Shown piece by piece: positions 7,172-61,854 of a stretch of 64,000 bases of DNA. The stretch covers positions 434,001 to 498,000 of the forward strand of contig CAJNOJ010000013.1 of NCBI GenBank assembly GCA_905250025.1, given 5' to 3'. The stretch is from Adineta ricciae (lineage: Eukaryota; Rotifera; Eurotatoria; Adinetida; Adinetidae). Position 1 is the stretch's first letter. Each line of letters starts with the position of its first letter. Both the position numbers and the translations under genes were made by a program. The notes beneath the pieces were generated by a model, which was given only the letters and a program-made list of their open reading frames with translations, was not told the DNA's origin and made no database searches.

Positions 7172-7774
7172 ATGAACATTCACTGTTTCGATCGAACATT
7201 CTAGAATCTTTCTCAAAAATCGCCAAATAATTTTGTTATATATGTTGATGTTTCTTTCACATAAATAAATTTGTTGTTGAAAAACACGAATACACATCTA
7301 TATATTCGAAACACGAGCATTTATTCTGTAACCTTAAGCGTAATTACATTTTGCTATTTAACAAAGTCTACCTTGAAATAACTGTATTCAAATGTTAATC
7401 CACATAGGTAACATTAGTTGATTAGTGTTCGAGTAGAATAACAATGTTGATCGAATGACAGATGTCGCAGCTATCTCACTCTCTCATCAAACGAACGGGA
7501 AGACCCTATTGCAACGCTTTCGATTGCTCTGTTGCTTATCCAATACAAGAATCTTGAATTTTTACTTTTTCCTTTTCTATTGTTTGTCGTTATAAGTAAA
7601 TGATTAAATTTAACTTGTCGTCATCCGCTCTTTTACGAGCTACTCGTTGTCATCTAAAATGACTACGTTCTTTGCTTGCGTTCTCTATGCAAAGTTCTGT
7701 TCGATTTCATTCTAGATACTCAATGCTCTTTTTATTTTTGTATGTATATTTAAATCAAATTCATTAGATTAGTG
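7172..7774. other. Intergenic, upstream of ARL5
   Basis: No supported gene. It holds the probable promoter and 5' UTR of the ARL5 gene, including a pyrimidine-rich stretch that ends in TTAG near 7766-7769, close to the start codon. Confidence 0.45.
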
Positions 7775-8362
7775 ATGGGATTTTTATTTTCGAAATTATG
7801 GGCACTTTTCGGTAACGAAGAACACAAGATCATCATTGTTGGTCTTGACAACGCTGGTAAGATCAATCGAACTATGCGTTCGTTCGATTTGCTTGTTTCT
7901 TTCGAAGGTAAAACAACCATTCTCTATCAGTTTTTAATGAATGAAGTCGTTCATACATCTCCAACAATCGGCTCCAATGTTGAAGAAGTTGTTTTCAAAA
8001 ATATTCATTTTCTTATGATGGATATTGGAGGGCAAGAATCATTACGTTCATCGTGGCAAACATATTATGCTCACACGGAATATGTTATCTTAGTCATTGA
8101 CAGCACTGATCGTGAACGCTTGCCTTTATCTAAAGAAGAATTATTCCATATGTTACAAAGTGAAGAATTACGTTCCGCATCTGTTCTTATTCTTGCAAAT
8201 AAACAAGATATCAAAGATGCAATGACTTCAGCTGAAATCTCGAAACAGTTGTGTTTAACTTCGATTAAAGATCAGGCATGGCATATTCAAGCATGTTGCG
8301 CTTTAACGGGTGAAGGTTTATATCAAGGTTTAGATTGGATTGCATCGCGAATAAAACGATAG
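7775..8362 (+). CDS. ARL5: ARL5-type small Arf-like GTPase
   Basis: An Arf-like GTPase of the ARL5 group, which works at the trans-Golgi in endosome-to-Golgi traffic. Two exons, 7775-7856 and 7908-8362, encode 178 residues, against about 179 in animal ARL5. Gly2 (MGFLFSK) supports N-myristoylation. The P-loop GLDNAGKT is rebuilt across the intron. DIGGQE (switch II) and NKQD (base recognition) are present. ARL5 proteins usually have WDIGGQE and here the residue is Met (MDIGGQE). The start at 7775 is preferred to an upstream in-frame GTG because it places Gly at position 2. The 51-bp intron has no stop in frame, so an unspliced transcript would still be open but with the P-loop broken. Confidence 0.93.
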
Positions 8363-10286: not shown

Positions 10287-10643
10287 TACACAGCGCTTTT
10301 TTTAATCGTCTAAACAAGAAGAGAATGAATTATTTTTGCTCCCAATGTCTTGAATGACTGAAATTAATAAATGCAAAAGTTACTTTTAGTTCCATTATTA
10401 GTGAGACAGGTAGGTGAACTTGTTTGTAATTGCGTCAGATAAGTTTTCATAAAGATTTCCACGAACTGTATCAAGAAAGAAAAAAAACGCAGTCCAATGA
10501 GAATTTGTTCCTTTTTCTTTCCTTTCGCTTTTCTTCCTTTTAAACGCCCCTTTTGTTTTTCAAAATAAGCCGTTCTTGCATGTTTCATTTCTTCGTTTCA
10601 TATAAGAGATTCTTGATCGAGACGTTTTACTCCGACTTAAAAA
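10287..10643. other. Intergenic between ENT and RBR genes
   Basis: A 357-bp gap. There is no coding signal on the plus strand. A basic 74-codon minus-strand frame here looks fortuitous. It probably contains the ENT 3' UTR and the promoter or 5' UTR of the RBR gene. Confidence 0.45.
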
Positions 10644-11651
10644 ATGACGACGAATCCAGTAGAAAATACAGGAGCATCATCATCGAATAATAAAGAAAAG
10701 AAAAAGACAATCTGCGGAGCCTGTGAATCAGAGTTAGAACCTGATCATGCTGGAATACAATGTATACAAGGCCATCATTTTTGTACGGAGTGCTCCAAAA
10801 ATATCGTAAAATTGTTTTTTTCCGACCCTCATCTTTACATCCCTTTACGTTGCGTTCAATGCCACGTGGATTTGAATCCAAGCGTCTTCGAACGGCAATT
10901 AACAGCTGACCAATTTGACTTCTACGATCAAAACATGTTCGCCCTGGTCTACGTCAAAACACACATCGGAGAAGATGAACGATTGGACAGTTGTCCATTT
11001 TGTAATTTTGCTGTTATACATAACCTAGACTATCAGGGTTTCCTCTTTTGTGAACATCAAGACTGTGGTAAAACGTCGTGTTTAGTTTGTCGGAAAGCTT
11101 TACCTCCAATTCAAAGTGATCACATCAACGATGAACAGGAAGTCGAAATTTTCAAGCATTTTACTTGTCAAGAGCTAGCAGATGACAAGAGAGAATTCGA
11201 TTCTGCAGTGGAATTCGGTCAAAAAGTTCCATGTCCCAGCTGTGGCCTGGCCGGTATGAAAGATGACGCTTGTACACACATGACATGTCCAACATGTTCG
11301 CAAATTTGGTGTTATTTTTGCGGCAAACGAATGGAAGATTGCGATAAAAAACCCGGTGGAACGAATGGCATCTATGATCACAATCACAATTGGCATGCTA
11401 ATCCCAATCGATGTCCGATGTACTTTACTCAAATACAAGATGTTGATGAACGATGGCCAGGTGATGAGGAGCAATGCTTGATGATATTTCATCGGATTCG
11501 TTCGTTACGTTTGTTGCGTGAATTTGTAAATAAGCTCGGAAAGGATCGCGTAGCGAAATTTGAGAAGCATTTCCACATTTTGAATTCATGTGGCTTTACA
11601 ATGGAAGAAATTCTTAATGAAGACCTAACTCTTATACGTGGAAGAGGATGA
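10644..11651 (+). CDS. RBR-type E3 ubiquitin ligase (RING-IBR-RING)
   Basis: A single-exon protein of 335 residues. RING1 is at about residues 24-73 (CGAC...CIQGHHFCTEC...CVQC). An IBR-like module is at about 117-149 (CPFC...C...CGKTSCLVC). RING2 is at about 197-226 (CPSCGLAGMKDDACTHMTC...CYFC). In RBR enzymes the Cys in the GCxHM position of RING2 accepts ubiquitin. Here that residue is Cys210 in DACTHM, so the enzyme looks catalytically competent. A His/Cys-rich stretch and an unrelated C-terminal helical tail follow. It is shorter than parkin or HHARI and has no UBL or Ariadne domain that I can see. The subfamily is not assigned. The IMP4 start is only 120 bp downstream. Confidence 0.87.
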   Translation: MTTNPVENTGASSSNNKEKKKTICGACESELEPDHAGIQCIQGHHFCTECSKNIVKLFFSDPHLYIPLRCVQCHVDLNPSVFERQLTADQFDFYDQNMFALVYVKTHIGEDERLDSCPFCNFAVIHNLDYQGFLFCEHQDCGKTSCLVCRKALPPIQSDHINDEQEVEIFKHFTCQELADDKREFDSAVEFGQKVPCPSCGLAGMKDDACTHMTCPTCSQIWCYFCGKRMEDCDKKPGGTNGIYDHNHNWHANPNRCPMYFTQIQDVDERWPGDEEQCLMIFHRIRSLRLLREFVNKLGKDRVAKFEKHFHILNSCGFTMEEILNEDLTLIRGRG

Positions 11652-17915: not shown

Positions 17916-18694
17916 ATGGCGCTTCAACTGACTCTATCATGTGATTCGGATAAAACCGAAAGTGGTCCCGTGCTCATTCATTCAACTGGAGTTGAGCATT
18001 ACAAAATTCCACCGGATGTGGTAGGTACACAGGAGTTTCTAAGGTCATTGGATGCTAAACGAGAAGTTGAAGTCGATAGTCAAACTCAGTGAATTGTTTT
18101 GCATTGCTGAACAAAGTTTTGTTTTTGACACATTTTCTCGTTATAACAGTATTATCAATGAGTGAATTTTATATTAGCCACAAAAAAAAGAATGAGAAAT
18201 AGGATCGACCGTTGATATTATTTTCCATATTTAATAGTGTAAGTTAATAATAAAAACTGAATTTCCCTGGAGATTGTGATATTCAATAATAATAGTTTTT
18301 CATAGTCCGTAATGCAGAAAAAAAGCAGAAATGAAACTTTACAAGCATGAATTTGTCTTAGATTCGCATATTACAAGAAACTTTGACGAACGAATTGTTA
18401 TCTGACCATGCCGATGGTGTACTCTGTAACGAAGGTTCTCAACGGGTTCTCGATATTCTTCTTCAAAATGGATTTACGTTACAGAATCAATCTGATGAAG
18501 ATGGTAAGACGACGTGGGTAGTTGAAAAAGGTGGTGATGGTGAAAGTGATCGTTCGGTTCAACCTCCGGATAATTCCAATACAACAGGTGACGATGAAAA
18601 TGGAGATGATGCTGGAAATGAAGATCAAGGTGGTGGCGAGGAAGGCGGTGAAGAAGGTGGCGAGGAAGGTGGTGAAGAAAAGGAAGAAGAATAG
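17916..18694 (+). CDS. Unknown protein with acidic Gly/Glu-repeat tail
   Basis: I do not recognise the family. The first coding block from the ATG at 17916 begins MALQLTLSCDSDK and contains EHYKIPPDVVGTQEFL. The second block (from about 18362) contains LLSDHADGVLCNEGSQRV and DGKTTWVVEKGG, and ends in repeated GGEEGGEE units. The obvious donor at 18089 and the acceptor at 18361 are out of phase with each other: that splice gives an early stop. A GTAGGT donor inside the first block (about 18019) would be in phase with the acceptor. The exact junction is therefore unresolved, and two isoforms are possible. The protein is small, soluble and very acidic at the C-terminus. Confidence 0.55.
18630..18691 (+). 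repeat. Gly/Glu-coding tandem repeat
   Basis: A short imperfect tandem repeat of a GGC/GGT-GAG/GAA pattern within the coding sequence, encoding the GGEE tail. The unit boundaries are exact enough for slippage-driven length polymorphism. Confidence 0.7.
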
Positions 18695-19223
18695 ACAAAG
18701 ATACATTGAAACTTATCATTTATCAAAAACAACAATAACTCTTCGCTTGATTCATCTTTTAGCATTCATCTTCTATAGCTATATATATATATATATCTTA
18801 TCGAATAAAGCGTATATATACTTTTCTCATGCTTTCTTCAAGAATAAAACAATTGACTTTCTGATTCATTTATTAAATGTAATAATAACCAAAGAGAAAT
18901 CAAGAGCTTTATAAATCATAGTTCGGAATAGTTTCTTCTATGTTTTTCTCAAGTATAATACTCACACCATAGCCGAAAAGTCTCAAGTGATTTAGCTATG
19001 AATGTTGACCAGGGATTGACGCAAATATTGCTAATTAAAAGTACACTTTTTACAACGATAACAACTAATTTAACAGTCAAAGATACAAATAAAAAGATTC
19101 CTTTCGTATTCAAATGATAGAAGCTTTGAGTGTTGAACTTTTGTTTTTGTATGTATGCATCACTTTCCAATTTTTATTAAATATTTATACTAGAAAAAAG
19201 AATGAGGAGACATTTTCGATCAC
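18695..19223. other. Convergent intergenic region
   Basis: It lies between the 3' end of the acidic-tail gene (+) and the 3' end of CFAP74 (-). AT-rich, with a TA dinucleotide run near 18780-18797 and several AATAAA-like signals. No gene is supported. Confidence 0.5.
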
Positions 19224-22200
19224 TTAGGTGGGACTCTCAATTTCTTGTAAAGATTCTTGTAGTGTCAACTGTTGACTAGCACCAGTGACGGACGCATTGG
19301 AACGAGTGCTCGTTGCTATAGTTAATCGATGTTTTGACGGTCGTAATAATCGTTTATCCGAAAGTGAAGCTGGATCGACAAAACCAATTAAAACAACGCG
19401 CCATGTTCGTGTGACATCGCCTTTGGTTATCACAGTGACTGTTGCTCGAGAGGCTTCATTCACCTAATAAAAAGATATAAGAAACCAATCAGTTCGAAAA
19501 CGACAAAACTTGCATCGAAGTTTGATGGTGGTGTCCAAGTAATTTTTACAGCTTTTTCTGTACCCATTTCTACGGAAGTCTAAAAAGTAAAGCAGAGACA
19601 AAACATAGATACTCTTCAACACTCATTAAATATATACCTTAGGATTATCCACAATGAAACCTTCGTTATTAATATCTTTCATATTATCGAATGAATAATC
19701 ACCATTCTACAATCATAAATCTTTCTACGATTGAAATGAAACTATGGTAGATCTTACTCGTTTAGTTCCACTTGTTGCCGCACAGCCGATCATCAGTTCA
19801 CGTTGAGCAGGTACATATTTACCATTGGCCATCTGCGCACAGAGTAAAACAACAATGTTATTCGGCGCTCCTTTTTCAGTCGGATCTAAAAAAAGTAAGT
19901 TCGTGAGTACCACTATGAACAAAAAATTCGATTTAAATCAAATCTAACCAATGGCTTGCATTTGCGAAGTTACAATATCGCTGATATTCGGTAGGAGACT
20001 TTTCTGCACAACATTGGCATTATCTAGTGGTCGAATAAACATGGTATTTTGACGACCACTACCACGCAAACGAAATTCGAGTTTCACAGGCTATAAAAAT
20101 TTATTTAGAATATAAATATTCAAATTTTATGTTTTAAGACCAACCTGATCCGAGATAGTTATACGAACAAGATCCGAAAAGAAGTCAGAGTCATGGTCAG
20201 GACTGAAGATTACGGTCAGTTGCTTCTTACTGCCAGCTGGAATGACTCCATTCACTGGGGTTATGTCAAACACGGATCGACCACTTAAATTTTGTGGACC
20301 TAAGAAGTTATTCATGCGTCAGAAGAGAACGATCATTTGTATTCTACCTAACTTACCGATCATGTGTTTATTCGAGTCAAACGTAGCACCCCATACATTT
20401 TTATTTTCTTGTTCAATTCGATTATTTACATATTGACTGGCTAAATCAACCCGAAATGTAACTTCAGTCTCTGATTGATTAATAATCTATAGAAAATGGA
20501 AATTTTTATCAAATATTGACAACATCAATCAAATATAGAAACAAGAATGATCAACTATGATGACAACAAAGCTCTTTCTTTCATTCTCTCTGCATCTTTT
20601 TCAATAACATTGACACCTTTACCAGCGAATTTCTCGGGCCCCAGTTCTGTCACTTTAAATCCTCCACTGCGATACTTGGCACTCGGTCGCTTTCCAGGAA
20701 ACGAAAATATTGCATTGAACCATGTTTCTTTTACATACCAAGGCTCGAAAAAGTAGCCCGTACGCTGATATCGACCGTCTTTGGTCATTGGACAAGAGCG
20801 TGAAGCCTGACCGCGCTTATCTGGATAGATACGTGGTAGTGCGCAATGTACGAGAAGAAAAGCTCGACAACGAAAGAAAAATATTGTCAATTGTTTTATC
20901 CAGTGCGGTGGTTGCTCAAACCCCATAGCTAAACGAAGTCTTTCGTCTACCAGTGAAATGAACACTTTTCGAACCAATTTCCGCATACAATTTGGATATA
21001 TCGAGAGTAGTAATTCTATTGTTGCTTCTCCACATATTTGATTATCTTTCGAATAAGTCATATGTTGGATTTCATAATTGACTGACCAAGTTTCTAAGTC
21101 TTTTAAAGTCAATGGAATATTTTCAATACCCATTCGCGCACCTAATTCTCGCCAGAAGAAAACTCGTGCTTCGCCTTCAACGGGTGCAAGAGGTCGCCAG
21201 TCATATTTAACTGCCCAACGGCAAGGTTCAAGTACGAATAAACTTAGTGTATAAAGCATATCATCATTACTTATTCGACCTCGGTACAGATTGTGAAGAT
21301 AATTTATACGCGCTGTTGCCATTCGAGCTCGAGGCGAATCGAGATCATTTTCAAAACATTCAGAGAGAAGAACACCGGTATCTTCTGCTCGACGACCAGC
21401 TACTTCTAATCGAGCTAATTGATCAGTTTGAACAAGTAAGCGTGAAATGCTCGGAATGCCATATGTTTTAAAGAGAGCAAATGATATCGATAAACCAGAT
21501 ATATAGGGCATGTCGAAGAAAGTAGATAGCCGACTGATTTCATGTCCTTTTTGATAATCAAGAGTGTTTATGTCGTATTGATTCAAGATTGACTGAAGAC
21601 GACGAAAACGAAAATAACGGCAGGCTAGTAAATATGTGAACAAAAGCGCGAGAAATAAAGTTGTAGTACAAATTGCCACCATTACTAGATACCCGACTCG
21701 ACGGAAAGTATGTATTTGTAAGATTATGAAGTATGAGTGGAAAAAGAATCGTTATAGGCAACGTTTTCAACAAGGTGAATAAACATGCAGAACGAATACA
21801 ACACGTGTACAAGATAAAGAAAATCTTTGCTTTCTTTTCTATTTAGCTCACATAATGCAATATGAGTGATGATTTCTCGAAACCGGTTTAGTTATTGATT
21901 AGATTCTGTCTTACCTGAAATGATTTTTCAATGTGATCTTTGGCGAGAACACAACCCATTTGAAATGGAGTGTTTGTATCAAACGATAATTGAACATTAG
22001 GTTTAAGACCCACTCCTAATAGAAATGATCATCAAAATTGCTTTTTCAGAGAGATCAGCGAATTTCTACCTTTGAGACATAATGTTAACTTTGAACTTTC
22101 ACTAGTCAATTCAAGTGTTTCTAAAAACTATTGGAAACATGCGTTAGTGATGGTAAAAGATATTCTATTTCTATGTTTTGAACACACCTCAACGGTGGCA

Positions 22201-25200
22201 TTTGGTGTAAATGTTAATTTGATTGGCGCTGTACCACCTGGTTCTATCTTTCGTAGGGCATTCAATAATCGGAATGGTCCATCGATATTCAATAGAGCAC
22301 TACGTAACTAAATCACTCGATATGTTAAGACGAAAGATTGTCATTTAGTTGAGATTTACTTGAATTGGTTTATCAGTGATATTTTGTACGAGAACTGTTC
22401 GTGACAGTTCTTGACCAACTGACGCCGATCCAAAATCAATCGTAGTCTGTCCGTAATCGGAGATAACGATCAATTCTGGTTTAACAATTGGACAATGAAC
22501 TTGGAGAAACAGAGTATTAGCCACACTATTCATATGTTTATCTATTAAACGACAGAGAAATTGGTAAATATTCTTACTCATAGTTTAATATGCCAGGCCG
22601 TTGACATTCACCCGATGCAACATAACATGGAATAAGAAACGACGCCAACGATGATGGAAATGATTTCATCATAGATAATTGAGCCAGTGACCATTCATTT
22701 GAACTAAACATTGAAATGATTAGACAAAGAAAGCGATATAATGTTCAGTAAAGGTGACTAACTGTTCTGGTGCCGGTGAAATAATGTCACCACTGGTACT
22801 TGTAGTTGTATCACGTCGTCGACTGATGGTATTTGATCTATGTTTTGACTAGAATCATCTAGTGTGAAGAAAATCGATGGAAAATCTGAATATTCTTACG
22901 TCGCCTTTGTTTGGTGAATCTTTTCCATCCGCTTGTCGCCTCGCGTCCGCTTCTTTGATGCGAATAGATTCAGTACGTATATCAGCAGGATCCAATTTCG
23001 GTGCCAAGCGAACCGTTATCTTTTGTCTCTAAACAGCAACGGACGAACACGTGAATGACTAACTATTAGGGAACAAAAAACTGACCGTGCCAGGTTCAAC
23101 TGTACCAACAAGGGGTGAGATAGTAATTGGTGCATTTTCTGGCACTTCAAATTGAAAGGATGTTGGGCCAACGGCAGCAAATTCGCCTGAACAAGCGTGT
23201 TTTAATATATGTGTCTGTTAACAAAAGAGAAAAGTGTTCTATACCGTTGCCAATACGTGGTACCGGATGTCGAAAATGATTCTTATCTAAATGCCGATTA
23301 TCAACGTAGAAAGTAGCAATCGATTGATCGTTGATTGGTGTTGCAGGAAAGTGAATAACAGTCGACGAAAGTGAGAGAGGTGGTAAAACACCAACGCCTT
23401 GACAATCGAAAGTAAACTCTCTGGAAGAAAACCACATATCTCATGTCAATTACACAAAAAATACAAACGCACCGATTGATTAGAGATCTACAGGTCAATG
23501 TGCACTGATACTCCTTTGTTGCCGAAGGACTGAAGAGAACATGTAAAGGAATCGTTTCTTCCGGTAGTAATGTACCGAAACCATCGTTTGGTTGCACTTG
23601 AATGTACTACACGCAAGAGAAACAGTATATGCCAATGGAAACGCGAATGTTAACTTACATCTGGGAGATTCACAAATCCAAATGGTTGAGCCAGTAATGA
23701 ATTATTTTTTAAATGTATCTTCGCCACAACACTTTCGGTGGTAGTACAACATCCAAAATCGATATGTTCAACATCAAATTGTAGATCACTGGTGGTTAGT
23801 ACTGCACTTATACTGAATGGAACTGTTCGAATTTGATCGGCTACTTTGATTTCCAATGGCACAATCAATGTGCTATATGTTGGATCGAATATTTCAATCG
23901 GTAAACCATCATCAACGATTGACGGACGAGCAGTTAGTTTGATCTGTAGATTGAAACTTGATTTTGCTTGAATGTAGGCTGTGCGTGGAACAATTTCAAT
24001 ATGATTCTGTAAGGCGCGCGGTTGGATATCAACGGACACACGAAGTGCGGCCGAACTTCGATTACGAAGCACCAGTGCATCTTGATACAGACGATCGAAC
24101 ATGCAAATTTTAAAATCAGTGGAAGGATTTTCAACCCAAACAGGAACGTCAATTGATTGAGCATTGATTGAGAATTTCAACTGAAACAAAAAAACCAGTG
24201 ATTCGACAAGAAATGAATATTTATCATTAAAAATACTTCGGAATGATTTTGGTCAAACGCAATAGTATATTCTTCATGGAATGTTCCAGCTACCGGAGCA
24301 GTGAACTCAATTGGAAACGATATCGATGAATGTGATGCAAGGAAGCCCTGATCAGCCGCTTTTATGGTAAAAACTTCAACGTATTCTTTCTGAACAAGAT
24401 CGGCTACATCTGCAAGACAACATTCATCTTAATTTAATATGGATTTCCAAAAATACCTGGCGTAGATGCTGGTTCTTTTGTTTTCTTCTGATCTTTCTCG
24501 TTTTCGGCTTGTTCACGACGCAACACACTTGTTTTCACCAAACGATAATTCGTACCCAGTCCACCATTGTTACGCAAGGTAATACTTTGATGAAGACGTT
24601 CATCAACAACTGTTGTTCCAACATTGACTGATGTTTTATCCAAGGATAACTAAACATGAAAATATTTGAACGATAATTGCTGATCAAAATACAAACAAAA
24701 TTTTGTCTTCGCTAAATTGTTTATCTACCTCAACTTTCTTGATTTCACAACGAATTGGAACAGTAAACATGCCTGTTTGGGCAAGAAATTTGATTTCACC
24801 ACGAAGATTTTCATTGATCTATGAAAACAGAATTGATCCAAGATAAAAATATCAAAACCGCTCTATTCACCTTCGGTTCGAAAGTAACATGAAGATAACA
24901 CGACATTCCAGCCGAAATCATTCCTGGTGGTTCAAATCTATGAATAATCAAAGAATTGCAAGAAAACCATTTCGAGAAGCAAATAAAAATACTTCAGTGT
25001 AATGAAATCTTTCAACGATTCTGACAGATCGACTAATTTGAGTGTATTGATTGTTAAGGTTACATTGGTCAACGTTACTCGTGTTCGATATATTTTTCCG
25101 ACATCGAAATCCTACAGAAATGAACACATATCCATCAAACAGATAAGCTTTGTTTTGGACAAACTTTGAAATAAATTTCTGTTGGGTCACTTTTGAACGG

Positions 25201-27521
25201 TACAGTTCCTTCATACCGTTTTGTTCCAACAACTTGTTCACGAACAACATTCTCTTTTAATCGAGTTAGTGTTCGTTGCAAGATGTCCTTTGAGAAAGGA
25301 AGAAACACAAAAACTGAATTCATTTCTCTAATCATAAGAATGATTACTTTATCCATTTTTGTTTTCCAATATTTCGATCGATTAAAAAGTGGATCGATTT
25401 CTTGTTTGGCTGGTTGTTTATCCCACAGACCATTGAATTCAGGTTGAGCCAAATCAACATCCATATCTATGCAACAAAATCATTTATTTTTAGATAACTT
25501 GAGCAAAAATATGTTACCATCTTCGAATTCATCATGATGAAAAGTTGATGTCATCGATGATGCATATTCAATTGGATCAATATCGGCTTGAGTCGTTGGC
25601 ACAAGTTGTGGTGCTATTGTTGACTGAACGTCGGCAACGGATTGAGTTTGTGACATAGAATAAACAAAAGCAGTCAGCATGTATTCTTGATTTCGTACGA
25701 AGTTCAGTTCAACTTACTGACTAACTTGAGAAGAGATATCTTTGGCTTTGGTCATCGATGGTTTCGTGTTAGTTTTATAAAGTTCAGGATATAATTTACG
25801 TTTTCTCTCTTTCTCATTTTCTTCTTTGAGAATTTTGTCCACGATGACTAAACGATTTTGTTCTTGTTGATCAGCGAAACGTTTTTGCATTTGTTCCAAT
25901 TTCTCATTTCTCTCTTTACGAAGCATATAGAATAAGCCATTCTGTCCTTCGGTTTCAATCGATTGTTGTTCACGCTTTTTAGCATCCTGTGAATCTCGTT
26001 CTTGAGCTCGTTTTTGTGCTAATTTAATTGTTATCGCATCTTTATTACGTTCGATAGCATTGCGAAGATTGAGCAAACTTTTGATTTTTCTTTCAGTTTC
26101 TGCACGACTCGCGTCCTCTTCAATGCGTTTTTCTGTTCGAACTCTAAAATAAGGAAAAAAAACGTAGCGATGATAAGTCATTATGATCATGATGTACACT
26201 ACTTTTCGAATGTTTGCTGTAAATATTTATGCGCAACTTTTTTACTACGACGTGCTTCATCCAATGCAAATCGCTGGGCAGCTGCTTGCTGCTCGAGAGC
26301 TTGTTTTTGAGTGCTAAAATTAGATTTGGAAGTGTAAATTAATCGCCTCTCTCATTTCAACTATACTTTAATGTTGACTGATGTGCTCGTTTCAGTTGAG
26401 TAACTTTCCAATCTTCTTGCCGTTGTCGTAGTTGTACCAATGATTGTTTCTGATCGATTAAAATCGTTTCCTTTTCTCGTAGAAGGCTGTCTTCAGCATT
26501 GTAACGTCCTCGTTCAACAATCGCTCTAGTTCGATGCATTCTAAAATCGAGAAAGTGAGTTTGATTCGATTAAAAACGAATAGTTAACATACTCGGCAAC
26601 ACCGAGTTTTTCTTGCAGATCTTTCAAAACGTCATGTTCAAGAATGATTTCATGTTCGACACGATTCAATTCGCTGGAAAGTCGATTGACGATTGTACTA
26701 AACAGAAATATAATGCGATCATTCAAAGATCGTATACAATCGAGTGAAATATTTGGTATTACAAATGGAATAATCGAGTAGTGTGCTTTTCTTTTCTCAC
26801 GAGTGACTTACACGTTCCGTTGGTCTTGTGCGTGCGCAATATTTGTTTCCAATTGTGTTTTATTCTGTTCCATTTTCGTAATCTTTTCTTTAGTCAAATA
26901 AATTGATTGACTGAAAAATGAATGAAAAATCGAAGTGATCTATGTTTGAAATGATCGGATTCTACCGAATTTGTTGAACGGCATCATCTTTCTCTTGTAC
27001 TTTTAGATCAAGTTGAGTGATAAATGCTCGTGCACGAATCATTTGACCTTCTTCTTTCGCCGTAATTTTCGCTTTCTTCTTGTTGATTACTTCATTTATG
27101 ACAGATTGTTCCTCTTCCTCGTCTTCTTCTTCTTCACCGCCGTCGCTGATTAAACTATCGTGAAAGAATACTTCTTAGTAGAGAGAAAGAGAAGAAAAAG
27201 AAGTTCAACAATTCCATACCTTGAATAAGTCGTTGATCGACTGGTTAAATAACTATCTTCGCCTTTGGTACCACCGATTTCTTTCTCTTCTTCAACGACA
27301 TAATCGATCAAATTTGCATCGTCATTCAATGACGTTTGACTCTTATCTCGTGTCGCATGATTATTTCGAGTAACTTCCTGTCGTTGTTCATCATCATCAT
27401 CGTCACTGTCTTCATCACCATTCCCGTACATTTCGACATGTTCATCATTCATCTCGTCTCCTGCATAGTCATACTCATCATAATTCACTGGAGCTTCATC
27501 TGCATATGATAATGAAGACAT
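19224..27521 (-). CDS. CFAP74: CFAP74, ciliary central-apparatus protein
   Basis: An axonemal protein of the central-pair projection with hydin/ASH-type Ig-like domains. Translation starts at 27521. The N-terminus is highly acidic (about 100 residues). A long coiled coil covers roughly 27155-25740 (for example LSSELNRVEHEIILEHDVL). A run of ASH/MSP-like beta domains follows, with stretches such as FEPPGMISAGMSCYLHVTF, CMFDRLYQDALVLRNRS and NDGFGTLLPEETIPLHVLF that match CFAP74 in order. It uses many short exons with introns of about 50-100 bp. An apparent stop at 25714 is removed by a GTTAGT donor just before it, joined in phase to an acceptor about 100 bp on (CAG before about 25627). One intron (20487-21914, 1,428 bp) is far larger than the rest because it holds a complete unrelated gene. 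The CFAP74 start lies 51 bp after the TPGS1 stop. Confidence 0.9.
20487..21914 (-). other. Oversized CFAP74 intron hosting another gene
   Basis: The donor is read at 21914-21913 (GTAAGA) and the acceptor ends at 20487 (CTATAG). The flanking exons join in phase as ...EKSFQ then IINQSETEVTF..., a continuous ASH strand. At 1,428 bp the intron is over twenty times the local norm, and 1,128 bp of it is the mpaB-like reading frame on the same strand, with 232 bp before the frame and 68 bp after it. Confidence 0.85.
20555..21682 (-). CDS. ER-bound oxygenase of the mpaB / DUF2236 family, intronless
   Basis: A single open frame of 375 residues, unlike any neighbouring gene in having no introns. The N-terminus is a membrane anchor (MVAICTTTLFLALLFTYLLA followed by Arg-rich residues). 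The body carries the family pattern seen in fungal mpaB-like and rubber-oxygenase-like proteins: HEISRLSTFFD, ALFKTYGIPSISRLL, ARINYLHNLYRG, ISNDDMLYTLSLFVLEP, YDWRPLAPVEGEA, then an Arg-Leu-Arg-x-Ala-Met-Gly stretch with a Pro-Pro pair and LPRIYP. Family members are haem- or di-iron-type oxygenases that cleave carbon chains; in Penicillium mpaB acts at the ER on a farnesyl side chain. The substrate here is unknown. It sits wholly inside a CFAP74 intron on the same strand. Horizontal acquisition, probably fungal-type, is an inference from the family, the lack of introns and the position. Confidence 0.85.
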   Translation of the reverse strand: MVAICTTTLFLALLFTYLLACRYFRFRRLQSILNQYDINTLDYQKGHEISRLSTFFDMPYISGLSISFALFKTYGIPSISRLLVQTDQLARLEVAGRRAEDTGVLLSECFENDLDSPRARMATARINYLHNLYRGRISNDDMLYTLSLFVLEPCRWAVKYDWRPLAPVEGEARVFFWRELGARMGIENIPLTLKDLETWSVNYEIQHMTYSKDNQICGEATIELLLSIYPNCMRKLVRKVFISLVDERLRLAMGFEQPPHWIKQLTIFFFRCRAFLLVHCALPRIYPDKRGQASRSCPMTKDGRYQRTGYFFEPWYVKETWFNAIFSFPGKRPSAKYRSGGFKVTELGPEKFAGKGVNVIEKDAERMKERALLSS

Positions 27522-31788: not shown

Positions 31789-33992
31789 TCATGGATTTGC
31801 CAATACACAAATCTCTCGAGAATCTAGTTCTCGGCTGTAAATTCTGAATTCGTCAATAGCACCGATGAATGATCCAGAAACAATAGATAAAGCAGCAACA
31901 TTGCTACAACTGACCGATGCTGACGAACCTAGAGGACTGATATTACCTAACGTGACATATAATATAGTACTAAAATCTTTTATATTTAGAGTGGCCGTAT
32001 TCGATGACATAGCACTTAATTGCCCACCGACATAAAGTCGTACACCGTTCGTTTCGGAATAAACATAAGCAATATGAGTCCATGTACCTGCGGATATAAT
32101 GGGACCGTGAAATCCGTCGAAAGTGTTGTTCCAAAGCATCCACTGTGCTACTAATTGTCCAGTGTTTGTCAAAGCGAGAAGATCATAGCAGATGGATCCG
32201 TTGCCATATATTAAATTTGACATATGAATGATTGTACCACCGCCAACGTGTGAACTTGGATTGATCCAAAGTGAAAACGAATATGGTGGGTCATCTAATC
32301 CTGAATTTGGGAAACATTGTGATTGGAAGTAGCTTGTACTGGAGGTAAAATAGAGTGCTTCATTAACACGACCTGTAGATATTGTGACGGACGGTGAGCT
32401 GACACTACCGTACAGATTGATACTATGATCATTAAGTGGATCAGTTGTATCGAATGGAAAGTAAGCCGTCAGGGTTGCATCATTGAGAATTTGACAAATA
32501 GTTCGTACGATGCCGGCCGAAATCATGAAGTTGTCCACTCGCCTGTAGAATAATAGAAATGGGATTTCAAAAACAGAGAAATGTTGTTACACGAACAATG
32601 AAAAAAAATTTTCTCTACTAATATCTCAAGAGCAATATTACAAATAGAACTGGTGTACATAAGTACATACCCTTGAAAATATGTTGTCCCGTAGCCTAAT
32701 GATGAACTTCCACCGATCGTTGTTAGTGATCCAGTTGATGTGCCTTGGTAAGAAGGAACAATGCTGGTAGAGATTCCATCTATGCGACCATTTACATAAA
32801 TTCGTTGCTGATATAAAACAGCATCGTAGACTACCGTTAGATGAAACCAAATATTCGCTGAAACAAAAGTCGCTCCAGTTAATGTATAATTATTCGTCAT
32901 CATCGAATTGAACGAGACTACGAAACGTGAATTTTGTACACTTATTGATAAACAAATCGAATTCGAATCGCATTGTCCGAAAACGCCGTAGTTACCCGAA
33001 GCAGCAGAATTATAGAGCATAATCCATGTTTCAATGGTGAAACTGCGTTGAGATAAATTAACATATGGAATCGATATATATTGTTGATTCAATGAAGCGA
33101 GAGTCAATGCTTGGTATCCGACATAACAATATCCAGTGTATCCAGGTGAACTTAGTCCGAATGCAGTTCCTGTCGCATATCCACTTACATCATTTGTATT
33201 TGCATCAAAAGGGTAGATTACAGTGATCGTCGATGTACGATAAGGTGTTTCTTGACCGATGCATGTTGTAGCGTAGCATCCCGATACAGTAATATTTGTG
33301 AATGATGCTAAAGTGAAAGAGTTTTTTAGGAGAATGATCCTTGTCCAACTACAGTCTTTCCTTACATTGAGAATTAGCTGGCTGAATGATGAGATAGTAG
33401 ATTGGAAAGTAGATAATAATTGCAGTCAGAACTGAGCCAATTATAATCAAACTAATTGTCAAAATAAGGAACTTCTGTTTCCGCGTCAATTGGCTAAAGA
33501 TAAAATTTTTCATCAATACTTTCTAATTACAACCTAACACTTCATTGCTCGATTATATCGACTGAGGTCATAGTAATGACACAAGTGAAAATCTGTCTTA
33601 CTTGAAACATATTCCAGACCCAACATTAGGCTGTTTGGGATTTTTTACATTTCTGGATGTTTCCGTCTTCGGTGTTAAAATCCGAACATTAATAGGCGTT
33701 GACAATCGATTGTTGGGATCGAGGTCTACTAAGTCATGTTTGGTTTCTAATGGTGGCGGTTTTTTGGCAGGCGGAATTGTTGATGATATTGCTGTCGACT
33801 GGAAATTAGGAATGTTATTCAAATGAACATCCTGTTTATCATCAGATTGTGGATTGATCTATGGAGAGGAATTCGTGAGGAATTGCGTCTACAGATGCGA
33901 TTTATTACTTTATGTTGAATTGCAGATAGCCGTCTGGGTACAATGGCGATGGTTGGCCGATGTTTTTGAGCCGTAACTTTCTCCTTAGACAT
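31789..33992 (-). CDS. Type II membrane protein with two LamG/ConA-like domains
   Basis: Start at 33992 (MSKEKVTAQKHRPTIAIVP). The cytoplasmic N-terminal part has a Pro-rich stretch (IPPAKKPPPLETKHDL). A TM helix encoded near 33370-33490 (LILTISLIIIGSVLTAIII) follows. The extracellular part has a short Cys-containing region (GCYATTCIGQET) and two concanavalin A-like/laminin-G-3 domains. Domain 1 has SFTIETWIMLYN and YDAVLYQQRIYVNGRIDG. Domain 2 has YSFSLWINPSSHVGG and ends IGAIDEFRIYSRELDSREI, the usual close of this fold. Such domains bind glycans or proteins; the ligand is unknown. It spans five or so exons with short introns. A damaged paralogue with the same layout lies directly upstream. 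Confidence 0.8.
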
Positions 33993-34349: not shown

Positions 34350-35960
34350 TTATATATTAACAAGAGCACACAGTTCTTGTGTATTGAACTCTCGATTGTA
34401 AAGTCGAAAGTCATCGACATCGCCAATAAACGAGTCAGATACGATCGCAATCGAACCACTCTGGCACGCCACTCCATCTAATCGTGAGTAAATCACTGCG
34501 ATATGAGACCATGTATTGAACAACTAAAGCGCCAGTTAGTGTGAAAGCAAGAAAATCGTAACAGAGGAAGCCAGCATCGGATGGTACCTACATATGATGT
34601 TGGGTTAACCCAAAGTGAAAATGTGAAAGGTGGATTCGTTTTAGATATATTTCGAATGACAGGGAAAGCTTGTGCTTGAAAACAACTTATCGACGATGTA
34701 AAATTTATAGCGTGTGCGTGACGTCCACCTGACATTATCGTTGTATTGGATGCTACTCCATTGAATCGATTGACACTTTAATCATTCAATGCACTGTCAC
34801 TATCAAATGGGTAATAAGCTGTTAACGTTGCATCATTAAAAATGTGACAAACGGTTCAAGTTATGCCAAAGGACACTTTAAAATGATCAATCCGTCTGAA
34901 ACATAATTCTTTCACCGGCGAGTAAGTATAGAACATCTTCTTACCCTTGGAAATATATTACTCCAGTGCTTAGAGATCGACTTCGGCCAATATTTGTTGC
35001 TGCATTTGTCGAATTTCCTTGATATGGTAGCATGATCCCCCTTGGAAATAGCGTCGATGTGTCCATTAACATACACCGTCTGTTGATATAATGTACCATC
35101 ATACATTATCGTCAAATGCATCCATTCTCTGATGGAAACTAACCTGATCCCAACCAATGTCTTATTATTGTTATTCATCGAATCGAACGAAAGAATGAAG
35201 CGTTCGTTTATGAGACTTGTTCCTAGACAAACAAAGTTCGAGTCACAATGGCTGAATATGCCGAAAGTACCAACAACCGAACTAGCTGATAAAAAAGCCA
35301 TGTCTCTAAAGTTAAACTTTGTTTCTCGAAAATAATTCCCGGAATTTAAATGTATTGCGATGAAGTAGAATTTAGATTCAATGCTGAAGTGCCCACATAG
35401 GACTGTGCCACATACGTAGGAGCACCATACGACACTCCATTGAAACGTCCGTTCGAATCATTAGCATTTCCATCGAATGAATAAAGAATTACCACTGTAG
35501 TTATCAAATTCGACGTTTCTTGTCCAATGCATGTTGCTGATGAACATGGATTGATACTGGTAGTGTGGGAGCTAAACAGTTTCGAAAATACAATCGAAGA
35601 TTTCGCTCTAATAACTTTCTTACGAGGAGTTGTCCGATTGATAACAAGCAAAACTACAGGAGGAAAAACAGCAATGGATGCGAGGATTAGATTTGGCGCG
35701 AGTTTTTGATTGGAAGTGAATTGTCTAAAATGAATTAGTGCGGTTTTCTTCATTGTTCATGATTATATTCGATGACATTTACACACAAATGACCTACCTG
35801 TAACAACTAGGTTGAATAAACTTGTTTAGTTTTTCGGTCGCCTTTAACTTCGTATGAGTACGTGAGAGTTGTGATTGAGCTTGGTTTGGAACGATTGTGT
35901 CAGTCGCCGGCTTACTGGTCTCCGTCGTCGGGTCAACTTGGTTTCCATTATACACTTGTC
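34350..35960 (-). pseudogene. Decayed paralogue of the LamG membrane protein
   Basis: The same exon plan as the intact neighbour can be followed: a cytoplasmic exon (about 35940-35798), a TM exon (ILASIAVFPPVVLLVI), the Cys motif (SSATCIGQET), LamG domain 1, and LamG domain 2 closing with FIGDVDDFRLYNREFNTQ. It is broken at several points. A TAA at 35348-35346 replaces the Ser of the QYIS strand in domain 1. The frame shifts in a poly-A/T run near 35286-35292. A second shift occurs at the run of five C at 35037-35041. The second-domain region is also disrupted around 34500-34600. The splice sites are still recognisable, so the decay is fairly recent. No full-length product is possible from this copy. 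Confidence 0.8.
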
Positions 35961-58725: not shown

Positions 58726-60342
58726 ATGAATCCACTAACCACAACAACATGTTCACCAGTTATGGTCGATCAAATATTTCGTTCGTTGTTACAGAATAAT
58801 CCGCGATCAGATAATGTTCGAATGACCACATCCGAAACCAGACCACCATTAACTTCACCACCAGCGAAAAATACCATTCGATTCATCGAAAACGATCAAA
58901 ATAATCGCCGTGAAAAGTATGATGGTTATCGATGGAGACTTGTGTGCACATGGAACATATACGACTGTACGAATCTTGCTGGTACACGACAGTTATGTGG
59001 AAAACATAACGCTATGCAACGTCATAAAGAAGTACCGAAGAAAAAGAGACCGCCGCTATTAACAACTATATCACTACCAGTTGGTAATCACTTAGGTAGT
59101 TGATCTTCATTTATGAATTTAAACAAAGCAAATTTTTTCCCATTTTAGGAAATCTGTACAATCAGAAAAATATGCTTCATCAGAAAGAAAATCCAGCATA
59201 CAGTGACGATGATGATATTCAAATAATTGAAGAATTTTGCAAAGTAAAAATCTAGTTTCTTTCGTATAAATGTTTAGCTTCAATTTATATTTTAGAAGCC
59301 AGCGATTCGCCATTCGACGAATACTCATGTTAAGTTAGAGACGGCAGATTTTAATGTCTTTTCCGTGGATCATGTCGATGAAGCTGATACACGTTTGAAT
59401 GTGAAACCAGAACCGACGGTAAGTCATTTTTCGACGAACACTTAAGCCATCCGTATTCTCCTGTGACCGAACAGAAATCATTCATCAACTTTGTGTCAGT
59501 AACCTATGGTGAGGATCATTTAATTCTAATCAGGATGTAATCGGTTCGCATTCTCATACATTAAGCATAAGCTGCTCGATAGTTAAACGCATATGGAGAT
59601 ATCAAGAGATAATTTATGAATGGAATTCATTATCATCTCTAGATACGTCTATTCCATTCCGACTTTGTTATATTATCTCTTCTCTTCTTCTATAATTTAT
59701 TTTGATCATTGAGTATAAATCAACTTAGCACTTTCTTCTGTGAAATCATCAATCCTGTACACATACACAACGACACTTCACCTTTTACACACAGATGTTC
59801 TATTCCATTTGCTAATACTTTTAGACTTCGTCTGCTCATCGTCCAAGTTCCAGTACTGATATTGAATATCTCAGTTCCACAACACGTTCCAATGGCTTAA
59901 ATATTTCAGAATTAATCGCAAAAAAAATTCCGCCACTGACTGATTTCGAAGAAGAATATATTGCGAGCCGCTTAATGGAAAAATTTGCAACAACTTGTCC
60001 CATGCTAGATGCTCAACTGTTTCTACAGGACGAAGCGGTGAACGTTGTCAAAAAGAACTATCGTTTGAAAGTAAGTTCATTGTCCTTCATAACCTAAACG
60101 ATTTCTACATAATTACACATCGTACTTCTACTTCATAGATGGACGCAGTGGCACCTGAATACTTCTACGACTTTCTTCTTCGCCATCCACGTGTAGCTCT
60201 CCATTTTAATAATTGGTTTCTTACCTGTAAAGCTGTACCACCGACAACTGGTTGTCCTGTCGATACTAAAGTATGGACGTTGAGTATGATCGTACGTGGT
60301 GCTTTGGCAGCTGACAGAATAATTGATGAACACGACGGCTAA
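58726..60342 (+). CDS. Unknown protein with compact Cys/His motif
   Basis: Exons 58726-59083, 59149-59243, 59296-59418, 59825-60070 and 60139-60342 join in phase to 341 residues. The first exon ends with a motif WRLVCTWNIYDCTNLA followed by LCGKHNAMQRHKEV, giving C-x6-C-x9-C-x2-H, which could bind one zinc ion. The middle is acidic and disordered. The last two exons form a helical domain (LTDFEEEYIASRLMEKFAT; MDAVAPEYFYDFLLRHPRVA) that ends IVRGALAADRIIDEHDG. I do not recognise the family. The short zinc-like motif followed by a basic KKKRPP patch suggests a nuclear protein, but that is inference. Intron 3 is 406 bp. Confidence 0.7.
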
Positions 60343-60726
60343 TCTTCTCTTTCTTCTGTTTGTTTCCTTTATCTATATCATTTCGTACTTCGTTCCTTGT
60401 TGTTTTTGTAATCAATGTCACCTGTTCTTTTACGTTCTAAATCATAACCTATCTATGTTTATCCTCACTTTCTTGTCTTTGATTTGTGAATATCAGATGA
60501 AAAAAGTACAATTCATTTGAAATCATCCATTTATACAGTTCTTTCTGACTCACTACTACAAATTCTCCCGTTGAAGATTTTCAAATGACTCGAAAATACC
60601 GTTCATTAGAATAACTGGCTTCTTTCGTGAAATGAATTTATTCTACATCACACGAACCGAACAACACAAGCAACAAAAACAGGGATGCGCAAAAAATATA
60701 AATACTGACAAGCTATACAAACAAAG
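60343..60726. other. Convergent intergenic region
   Basis: 3' UTRs of the Cys/His-motif gene (+) and the Pax gene (-). AT-rich, no gene. Confidence 0.5.
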
Positions 60727-61854
60727 TTAATAGAAAGATGAGTAAGGTGTGTACGATAGACCGTAGTTCGAATACATAGCCGGAGTTACCGGTGAATCAT
60801 GTGTCGGATAGTAGTAACCATTGATCGGAGAATACGACGAATTCATTGACCCATAGGACATGGCTGGCGATGATGGCCAGTAGCCTAAAATAGAAATACG
60901 AATGACTTATGTGTCTAGCGATAAATAGAACACTCACCACTGGATGGACTAGAGGTAATCGCTGGATCGAATACAACGTCAGACATGCTCATAGGTTTTC
61001 TGTCCACCACTGGTGATTGAAATGACGGCATGGTATTTTCTTCTTCGGGTAGCACATAAGCGGGCGTGGGTGCGACTTTTCGAGTACGAGCACGACGATT
61101 GCTGAACCATATCTATTTAACCCAGTCCAACAAATATTATTGTTCTACCAGTAATAAAGTGATGCCTACCTGGATTCTATTTTCTTCAATATTCAACTGT
61201 TGCGACAGTCGCTCACGTGTAGAAACATCGGGATACGGTGTTCGAGCAAATGTTTTCTCGAGAATTTCAAGTTGCTCAGCATTGAATGACGAACGGTAGC
61301 GACGTGTATTGTTTGGTAAATTTCGTACTGGACGTAATGGCAATGTGTCACTCAATGAATTATCTAAAAATCATATAATCTCTTCGAAAACTAGTTCAAA
61401 CAGTAAGCACTCTTACTTTTGCTTTCGTCAGATTCTTCTGTCGTGCTATCGAATTCATTGAACAGCTGTTGACCATTAGTCTTCATATCCGTTCGATTGG
61501 GGCGATTTCCAATGGGACCTGGCTTGTATGAACCTGTTTCGTTGTAACGTGAAAGAATCTTCGACACACACCCATGAGACACTCGAAGCTACAAGAAACC
61601 AATTGAGTTTTTCAAATCGTCGGAACTCTTGTTACCGTACCTGACGACTGATAGCACAAGGTCGAATATCGTTTCTGGCCATTTCGATGATTTGACGACG
61701 AATATCATCCGGTAGCGGGCGACCATTGATGAAGACTCCACCAAGTTGATTTACACGACCATGACCAGCTAGAAAAAGTTCAACTGGAAATTTTATCAAC
61801 AAAAATCAATCAAATCATACCGAGAAGAGCTTCTTGTTCAGCTTGTTGATACAT
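60727..61854 (-). CDS. Pax transcription factor with PAI-only paired domain and homeodomain
   Basis: A DNA-binding developmental regulator. Exons 61854-61821, 61768-61641, 61588-61417, 61363-61170, 61112-60938 and 60884-60727 join in phase to 286 residues. The N-terminal PAI half of the paired domain is well kept ([45 protein letters not shown]). The RED half, normally about 60 residues after that linker, is missing: about 30 residues of acidic, Asn/Ser-rich sequence ([15 protein letters not shown]) lead straight to the homeodomain. The homeodomain ([19 protein letters not shown]...[14 protein letters not shown]) has Ser at position 50, the Pax hallmark, and looks closest to the Pax3/7 and Pax4/6 classes. 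No octapeptide was found. The Tyr/Ser/Pro-rich C-terminus is a probable activation domain. A non-coding first exon ends near 61880. Confidence 0.88.

Follow-up and report, generated by a model that had tools for sequence, protein, structure and literature searches.

The closest described nested systems are omp in capn5 and the TipE cluster in CG18675, which resemble the locus presented here in that the guest lies wholly within one host intron. Genome duplication is reported to have copied teleost omp along with its host (PMC13378369), and the TipE clusters are described as having escaped nesting in some insects (PMC3240667). In Drosophila, host transcription is reported to ignore intronic poly(A) signals that the nested gene uses (PMC3890989). 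The horizontally acquired genes of bdelloid rotifers form a second point of comparison, and the present case is alike in that the enzyme gene is fungus-like and belongs to a bdelloid. According to PMC5916493, many of the foreign genes in Adineta vaga were presumably acquired before tetraploidy, and the tetraploidy is placed before the divergence of the bdelloid families. On the side of the enzyme, residues R164, T168, and H198 of LcpK30 are described as placing or ligating haem, with H198 as the proximal ligand (PMC5522427, PMC6311187), and the distal lysine of LcpK30 is given as conserved in just 59% of Lcps (PMC5522427). Trans-anethole oxygenase is described as a flavoprotein (PMC3774712).

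The window, that is, the whole stretch of 64,000 nucleotides analysed here, comes from Adineta ricciae, a bdelloid of the family Adinetidae. The explanation preferred for its nested gene, with a probability of roughly 0.8, is that a transferred fungus-like oxygenase became nested in a CFAP74 intron before tetraploidisation and was kept after host loss. Horizontal transfer would most likely have brought a fungus-like DUF2236/MPAB oxygenase gene into the bdelloid lineage, where it would have lodged in one CFAP74 intron before the ancestral tetraploidisation. The guest would be an independent gene that carries a start and a stop codon of its own together with an ER-type anchor and is under purifying selection, while CFAP74 would be spliced around it and a putative promoter would drive it. 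On the ohnologous chromosome, the parts of CFAP74 that flank the insert on either side would have disappeared, with the guest left in place.

The nested locus and its host

The features of the locus to which the text refers are as follows.
20555..21682, minus strand: nested mpaB/DUF2236-type oxygenase ORF, 375 aa, with an N-terminal hydrophobic anchor
20487..21914, minus strand: host CFAP74 intron GTAAGA...CTATAG, phase 0, 1428 bp
21683..21914, minus strand: stretch of 232 bp from the donor to the guest ATG, putative promoter region
20487..20554, minus strand: stretch of 68 bp from the guest stop codon to the host acceptor, without AATAAA and with one GATAAA
20357..20486, minus strand: next host coding exon, 130 nt, with two AATAAA; possible guest 3' end signal
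20400..20405, minus strand: AATAAA, 152 nt past the guest stop codon, Asn-Lys codons of ENKNVWG
20367..20372, minus strand: AATAAA, 185 nt past the guest stop codon, Asn-Lys codons of SNKHMIG
21915..22015, minus strand: host exon preceding the insert, ending in KSFQ
21293..21295, minus strand: His130 codon, predicted proximal haem ligand (cf. LcpK30 His198)
21389-21391, minus strand: Arg98 codon
21377-21379, minus strand: Thr102 codon
20617..20622, minus strand: GTAAAG in Gly-Lys-Gly codons, splice-donor-like
19222..27521, minus strand: host gene CFAP74, exons 5' of about 25466 roughly modelled only
10641..11648, plus strand: RBR ligase-like ORF, left syntenic anchor; C1 counterpart at 619954-620952
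17916..18694, plus strand: small acidic gene, nearest left syntenic anchor; C1 counterpart at 621550-621923

The guest ORF is intronless and runs from an ATG at 21682 to a TAG at 20555. The enclosing intron extends from 21914 to 20487 on the minus strand between the donor TTCAG/GTAAGA and the acceptor TTTTCTATAG/ATT, so that 232 bp precede the ATG and 68 bp follow the stop codon. Its 1428 bp stand against 47-138 bp in the 29 other introns of a rough CFAP74 model. The stop-free run in the intron reaches 398 codons, whereas 500 first-order resamples reached 194 at most, with a mean of 91, and the guest frame is therefore not a product of chance. A complete guest thus lies inside one intron of an intact host, which is the arrangement of a nested gene. 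Among the neighbours, the RBR ligase-like ORF is presumably what its name says, the name being taken from the first-pass annotation and from inspection by eye, and the small acidic gene is taken, also by eye, to have two exons. Rfam and tRNA scans of the window gave no matches.

The spliced host protein aligns with solved CFAP74 (9ijj_C) at an E value of 1.6e-205 in one unbroken alignment across the joint KSFQ/IINQ. The joint was compared over 79 matches (P0129-P0207) from two CFAP74 searches, from which the eight bdelloid models P0121-P0128 were excluded and in which P0202 was kept. Seven of them, including P0202, do not span the joint; the other 72 do, and a guest-sized insert is present in none of these. 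Insertions within 12 residues of the joint reach 13 residues at most, and a few rows are gapped there. When a 326-residue CFAP74 piece around the joint was searched against the whole own genome, all eight matches fell on C13. CFAP74 is probably spliced around the guest.

The first-pass annotation had described a 375-codon uninterrupted same-strand frame wholly within a CFAP74 intron, and the ORF at 20555-21682 inside the intron at 21914-20487 bears this out. The match to 9ijj_C confirms the host as CFAP74, and the continuity of that alignment agrees with the claim that the insert landed without breaking it. The RBR-like gene, said to be without introns, is indeed an uninterrupted ORF in the window and in the ohnologous block.

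Family, predicted function, and origin of the guest

The guest scores 22.8 bits against Pfam PF09995 (MPAB_Lcp_cat), for which the cut-off is 23. Among 12 guest-bearing bdelloid proteins, four exceed the cut-off, at 27.8-29.7 bits; a fifth reaches 21.2, and the remaining seven have no match at E<=0.01. Matches at the same threshold are found in 32 of the 73 aligned guest-family sequences, an alignment that consists of the window copy and 72 of the best 120 of 377 matches, with fused models and fragments excluded. A PF09995 profile search of the own genome returned nothing at E<=0.001, whereas the protein search gave two copies; the profile, which misses both, is thus too weak here. No match to NCBIfam was found for three proteins, and none to the PDB in a phmmer search with the guest. 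The 73-sequence profile has one PDB match, trans-anethole oxygenase 8s1j (E 1.1e-6, about 200 residues), with the motif RADDT ... N..H ... D common to the two. Residues R98, D101, T102, N127, and H130 are present in all 73 aligned sequences. The triad R98-T102-H130, near-invariant in the DUF2236 family, is kept in the guest with a spacing of 4 and 28 residues, compared to 4 and 30 in LcpK30, a correspondence drawn by order and spacing and not by structural alignment.

The N-terminus of the guest has a hydropathy of 2.16 over residues 1-19, the sole region above 1.6, followed by RYFRFRR, and an N-terminal membrane anchor of ER type is predicted. Given the conserved triad, the guest most likely binds haem b through His130 and cleaves the C=C bond of a lipophilic substrate oxidatively. 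The best functional guess from these motifs would be an ER-anchored, haem-dependent, alkene-cleaving oxygenase. In base composition the guest is close to its host, with a GC3 of 0.29 versus 0.28 in CFAP74 and a codon usage correlation (r) of 0.80.

Among the best 120 of 377 matches of the protein search, 67 carry an organism name (hand count), comprising 60 fungal rows, six bdelloid rows, one amoebozoan row (Planoprotostelium, P0041), and no other animal. The 60 rows are those taken to be fungal from their organism names. Scores within the best 120 of 377 are at least 414 bits for P0001-P0028 and then 302 and below. The same 33 rows form one clade in the trees of 40, 125, and 65 rows, with supports of 99/98, 99, and 100/100, respectively; 11 of the 33 are named bdelloids or own-genome rows, and the rest are called bdelloid from their tree position. 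In the 65-row tree, composed of the 33 clade rows, 31 other listed matches, and the bacterial outgroup Speluncibacter, the bdelloid clade lies among fungi, with weak surrounding forks (88/72, 91/83). The guest is thus placed with support among non-metazoan sequences, and its named neighbours are fungal. A transfer from fungus to bdelloid is the simplest and most likely reading of this placement, with a direction that depends on the weakly supported fungal root, at which two long branches meet. The Speluncibacter relative itself (L021:956-1861) is 32% identical to the guest and has the same R..DT ... N..H pattern. The viral-contig scan yielded no relative.

The mpaB assignment of the first-pass annotation is upheld by the DUF2236 triad in 73 of 73 sequences, with a PF09995 score that is borderline. 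The foreign origin that it had proposed as one possibility gains support, as a fungus-like one, from the bdelloid clade (100/100) with fungi as named next kin, and placement inside an old metazoan clade, which it had named as evidence to the contrary, was not found among the best 120 of 377 matches. It had also suggested looking for the insert in CFAP74 of related rotifers, and this comparison, run on protein models, found guest-CFAP74 fusions in five further species. The age of the insertion, common to Rotaria and most likely older than tetraploidy, was missed.

Distribution in bdelloids, the ohnologous block, and rival readings

For the other species, protein models only were compared. The models of five further species, A. 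steineri and four Rotaria, join the guest to the C-terminal half of CFAP74. In Rotaria sp. Silwood1 (P0017), R. sordida (P0124), and R. magnacalcarata (P0125), the mpaB part continues directly into IINQ/IINH, with which the exon following the insert begins, and the mpaB-CFAP74 fusions of A. steineri (P0122) and Rotaria sp. Silwood2 (P0123) have slightly shifted joints. The upstream halves from A. steineri (P0126) and Silwood1 (P0127) follow CFAP74 until KTFQ and then end in short unrelated tails. The R. socialis model P0128 likewise has a CFAP74 part to KTFQ and an unrelated tail; it does not display the guest and is merely consistent with nesting. As the upstream halves and the fusions are listed on contigs of different lengths, guest and host are presumed to be adjacent in these species. 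The fused models in both Adineta and Rotaria indicate a nesting common to the two genera, and the insert most likely occupies the same intron in at least six of their species. The closest A. vaga copy, P0001, is sister to the window copy. The CFAP74 matches include no A. vaga model, the Didymodactylos carnosus fragment P0202 does not extend to the joint, and no monogonont occurs among the named CFAP74 matches.

A second guest copy is located at C1:622240-623349 as a complete separate ORF of 378 codons that is 58% identical to the first. Translated pieces of the window at 1.8-58 kb and of C1 at 612.2-640.9 kb follow the same order and orientation, with gaps, and the RBR-like ORF and the small acidic gene adjoin the guest in both blocks. 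CFAP74 has no credible remnant in the 96 kb of C1 examined: with a threshold of E<=1, tblastn gave a single match, of E 0.43, which is situated about 6 kb past the guest. The two guest copies differ by a dN of 0.33 and a dS of 1.27-1.29 (NG86), which is above 1 and near saturation; dN/dS is about 0.25, NG86 and LWL85 agree on this ratio, and the guest is under purifying selection. The other syntenic segments, 18 besides the guest out of 25 rows, have a dS of 1.20-3.27; three further rows have undefined dS and three are taken as antisense frames (0.24-0.78). The published mean KS of A. ricciae ohnologues, obtained with another method and assembly, is 1.27 +/- 0.146 (PMC5916493). The two copies thus lie in a collinear block and have a dS typical of bdelloid ohnologues, as an ohnologue pair does. 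The collinear C1 block and a dS equal to the ohnologue mean point to an insertion into CFAP74 that most likely predates tetraploidy. At such an age, DNA insertion and retroposition are indistinguishable. The loss of CFAP74 on C1, where the guest was kept, suggests that the guest is required in its own right, and gives indirect support to a transcription separate from that of the host.

Further features of the two blocks were also observed. A G/C-run-rich repeat of about 170-180 bp lies at C1:623649-623828 (L003 about 7650-7829), ~290 bp upstream of the C1 guest start, where the lost 5' part of CFAP74 would have been; it has 33 further matches on 27 contigs and is mobile or satellite-like. The C1 guest is adjoined by an ORF (L003:8546-9553, C1:624545-625552), presumably ankyrin-like as judged by eye, which has no window match at E<=1e-6 and is another difference between the ohnologous blocks. 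Window positions 31792-33425 and 34353-35756 (minus strand) both match C1 631.4-633.0 kb, possibly as a window-only tandem duplicate. The far end of the window, 60139-61805, has matches on C1 at 600 kb and at 661.7-662.5 kb that run the opposite way, a sign of either the edge of collinearity or an inversion.

The trees bear on whether the C1 copy could instead stem from a later, separate duplication or insertion, in which case the nesting need not predate tetraploidy. The 23 nested-type rows form one clade in the 125-row tree (SH-aLRT 95) and are paraphyletic in the rooted 65-row tree, as a later copy would allow, and their monophyly is not rejected (p-AU 0.21). In the 40-row tree, the six rows known as nested, among neighbours mostly without an assigned state, need four label changes. 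Moreover, Adineta accounts for every named row of the C1-type clade, in which four of ten rows are named or own-genome. However, a later copy would have had to arrive at the collinear place, beside the same neighbours and in the same orientation, with a dS of 1.27 that falls within the range of the other segments and at the published ohnologue mean, which makes it unlikely. Vertical inheritance of an old animal gene, lost in other animals without any transfer, draws on the width of the family, whose members occur in an amoebozoan (P0041) and one bacterium. It is very improbable in view of the 67 named rows among the best 120 of 377 matches, which are 60 fungal, six bdelloid, and one amoebozoan, with no other animal.

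The public protein models raise the alternative of a real chimera, in which the oxygenase would be a spliced-in CFAP74 cassette or the C-terminal half of CFAP74 would be made as an oxygenase fusion. The public A. ricciae model P0121 places guest residues 31-353 inside CFAP74, the models of five other species fuse both, and the predictions for some species are described as RNA-seq guided (PMC7943196). In contrast, the guest-host joints vary among the public models of the different species, and P0121 lacks the N-terminal anchor and the final 22 residues of the oxygenase along with 15 residues of CFAP74. In addition, the donor-like GTAAAG is in phase 1 and the native acceptor in phase 0, so that in A. 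ricciae a splice between the two would put the reading out of frame, and the C1 copy is complete on its own. A real chimera is accordingly quite improbable as a reading of the locus, and rare real guest-host chimeras may occur. The nested gene with its own reading frame remains the preferred reading, and the public models mis-merge guest and host in six species. The GTAAAG near the guest end is a likely cause; P0121 appears to use it, and unconstrained gene finding took it as a donor in a similar error. The bdelloid genome study that includes these species is reported to have used BRAKER, with published RNA-seq for A. ricciae, R. magnacalcarata, R. socialis, and R. sordida and RNA-seq of a related species for the others (PMC7943196). 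The public models presumably stem from that study. The listing of P0121 carries a calponin-homology domain name, and the nested gene is hidden within the chimera.

Expression signals and comparison with known systems

A search for a conserved element upstream of the two guest copies (the 232 bp versus C1) gave just chance-level matches of 7-15 bp. The 232 bp before the guest ATG contain ten AGs, none of them striking by eye as a spliced-leader acceptor. The 68 nt that separate the guest's stop codon from the host acceptor contain GATAAA only and no AATAAA, and the first AATAAA hexamers, 152 and 185 nt past that stop codon, are both in the next coding exon of the host. They are the sole ones in the 24 CFAP74 exons examined (3508 nt). 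At six other gene ends, the nearest AATAAA is 14-153 nt downstream, some offsets being off by 1-3 bases, and the C1 guest, which is among these six, carries an AATAAA of its own 81 nt past the stop codon. The two hexamers encode two of just three Asn-Lys pairs in 1167 residues, and each of the six bdelloid CFAP74 sequences compared has both pairs. Of the 72 rows other than bdelloid models, two have NK at the second site, and at the first site it is absent from the 12 commonest pairs, which cover 54 of the 72; the loop aligns poorly outside bdelloids. Codon shuffling, a test devised after seeing the data, gave a probability of 0.48 for at least two AATAAA in that exon, 0.09 for none elsewhere, and 0.047 for both, by which the hexamers are mildly unusual and the support for a role of theirs is modest. 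A tentative reading, rather doubtful at present, is that the guest lacks its own poly(A) signal and ends on AATAAA in the next host exon, in which case its lodging would have altered conserved CFAP74 sequence and the exon would serve both genes. If true, this would be a gene capture that reshaped a host protein through RNA-processing signals.

Each ingredient of this locus has precedent, and the combination is new. An acquired gene settled in the intron of a conserved ciliary gene and apparently persisted there through both a genome doubling and the split of two genera, and a guest that outlives its host in one duplicate is a natural test of its own necessity. Public annotation hides such nested genes via chimeric protein models, here in six species. 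Among the papers searched, none joins mpaB and rotifer; among the titles listed on nested genes combined with bdelloids, horizontal transfer, or host loss and duplication, none describes such a case, and DUF2236 is not mentioned in the papers checked.

As an enzyme, the guest shares the R-x3-T ... H pattern with LcpK30, its R98, T102, and H130 facing R164, T168, and H198 as reported in PMC5522427. In contrast to LcpK30, it has Asp101 in place of Lys167 and an additional N-terminal anchor. With trans-anethole oxygenase 8s1j, compared by PDB title and alignment, it has the RADDT ... N..H ... D motif in common; that enzyme is a flavoprotein according to PMC3774712, whereas the guest is predicted to be haem-dependent. 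Unlike other acquired bdelloid genes, it occupies an intron of a gene conserved in animals, and public models merge it with this host. Compared to omp and TipE, the bdelloid guest is foreign, lies on the same strand as its host, and outlived the host in one ohnologue. In teleosts the opposite outcome is reported, as the guest copy ompb was lost in some lineages while capn5 stayed (PMC13378369).
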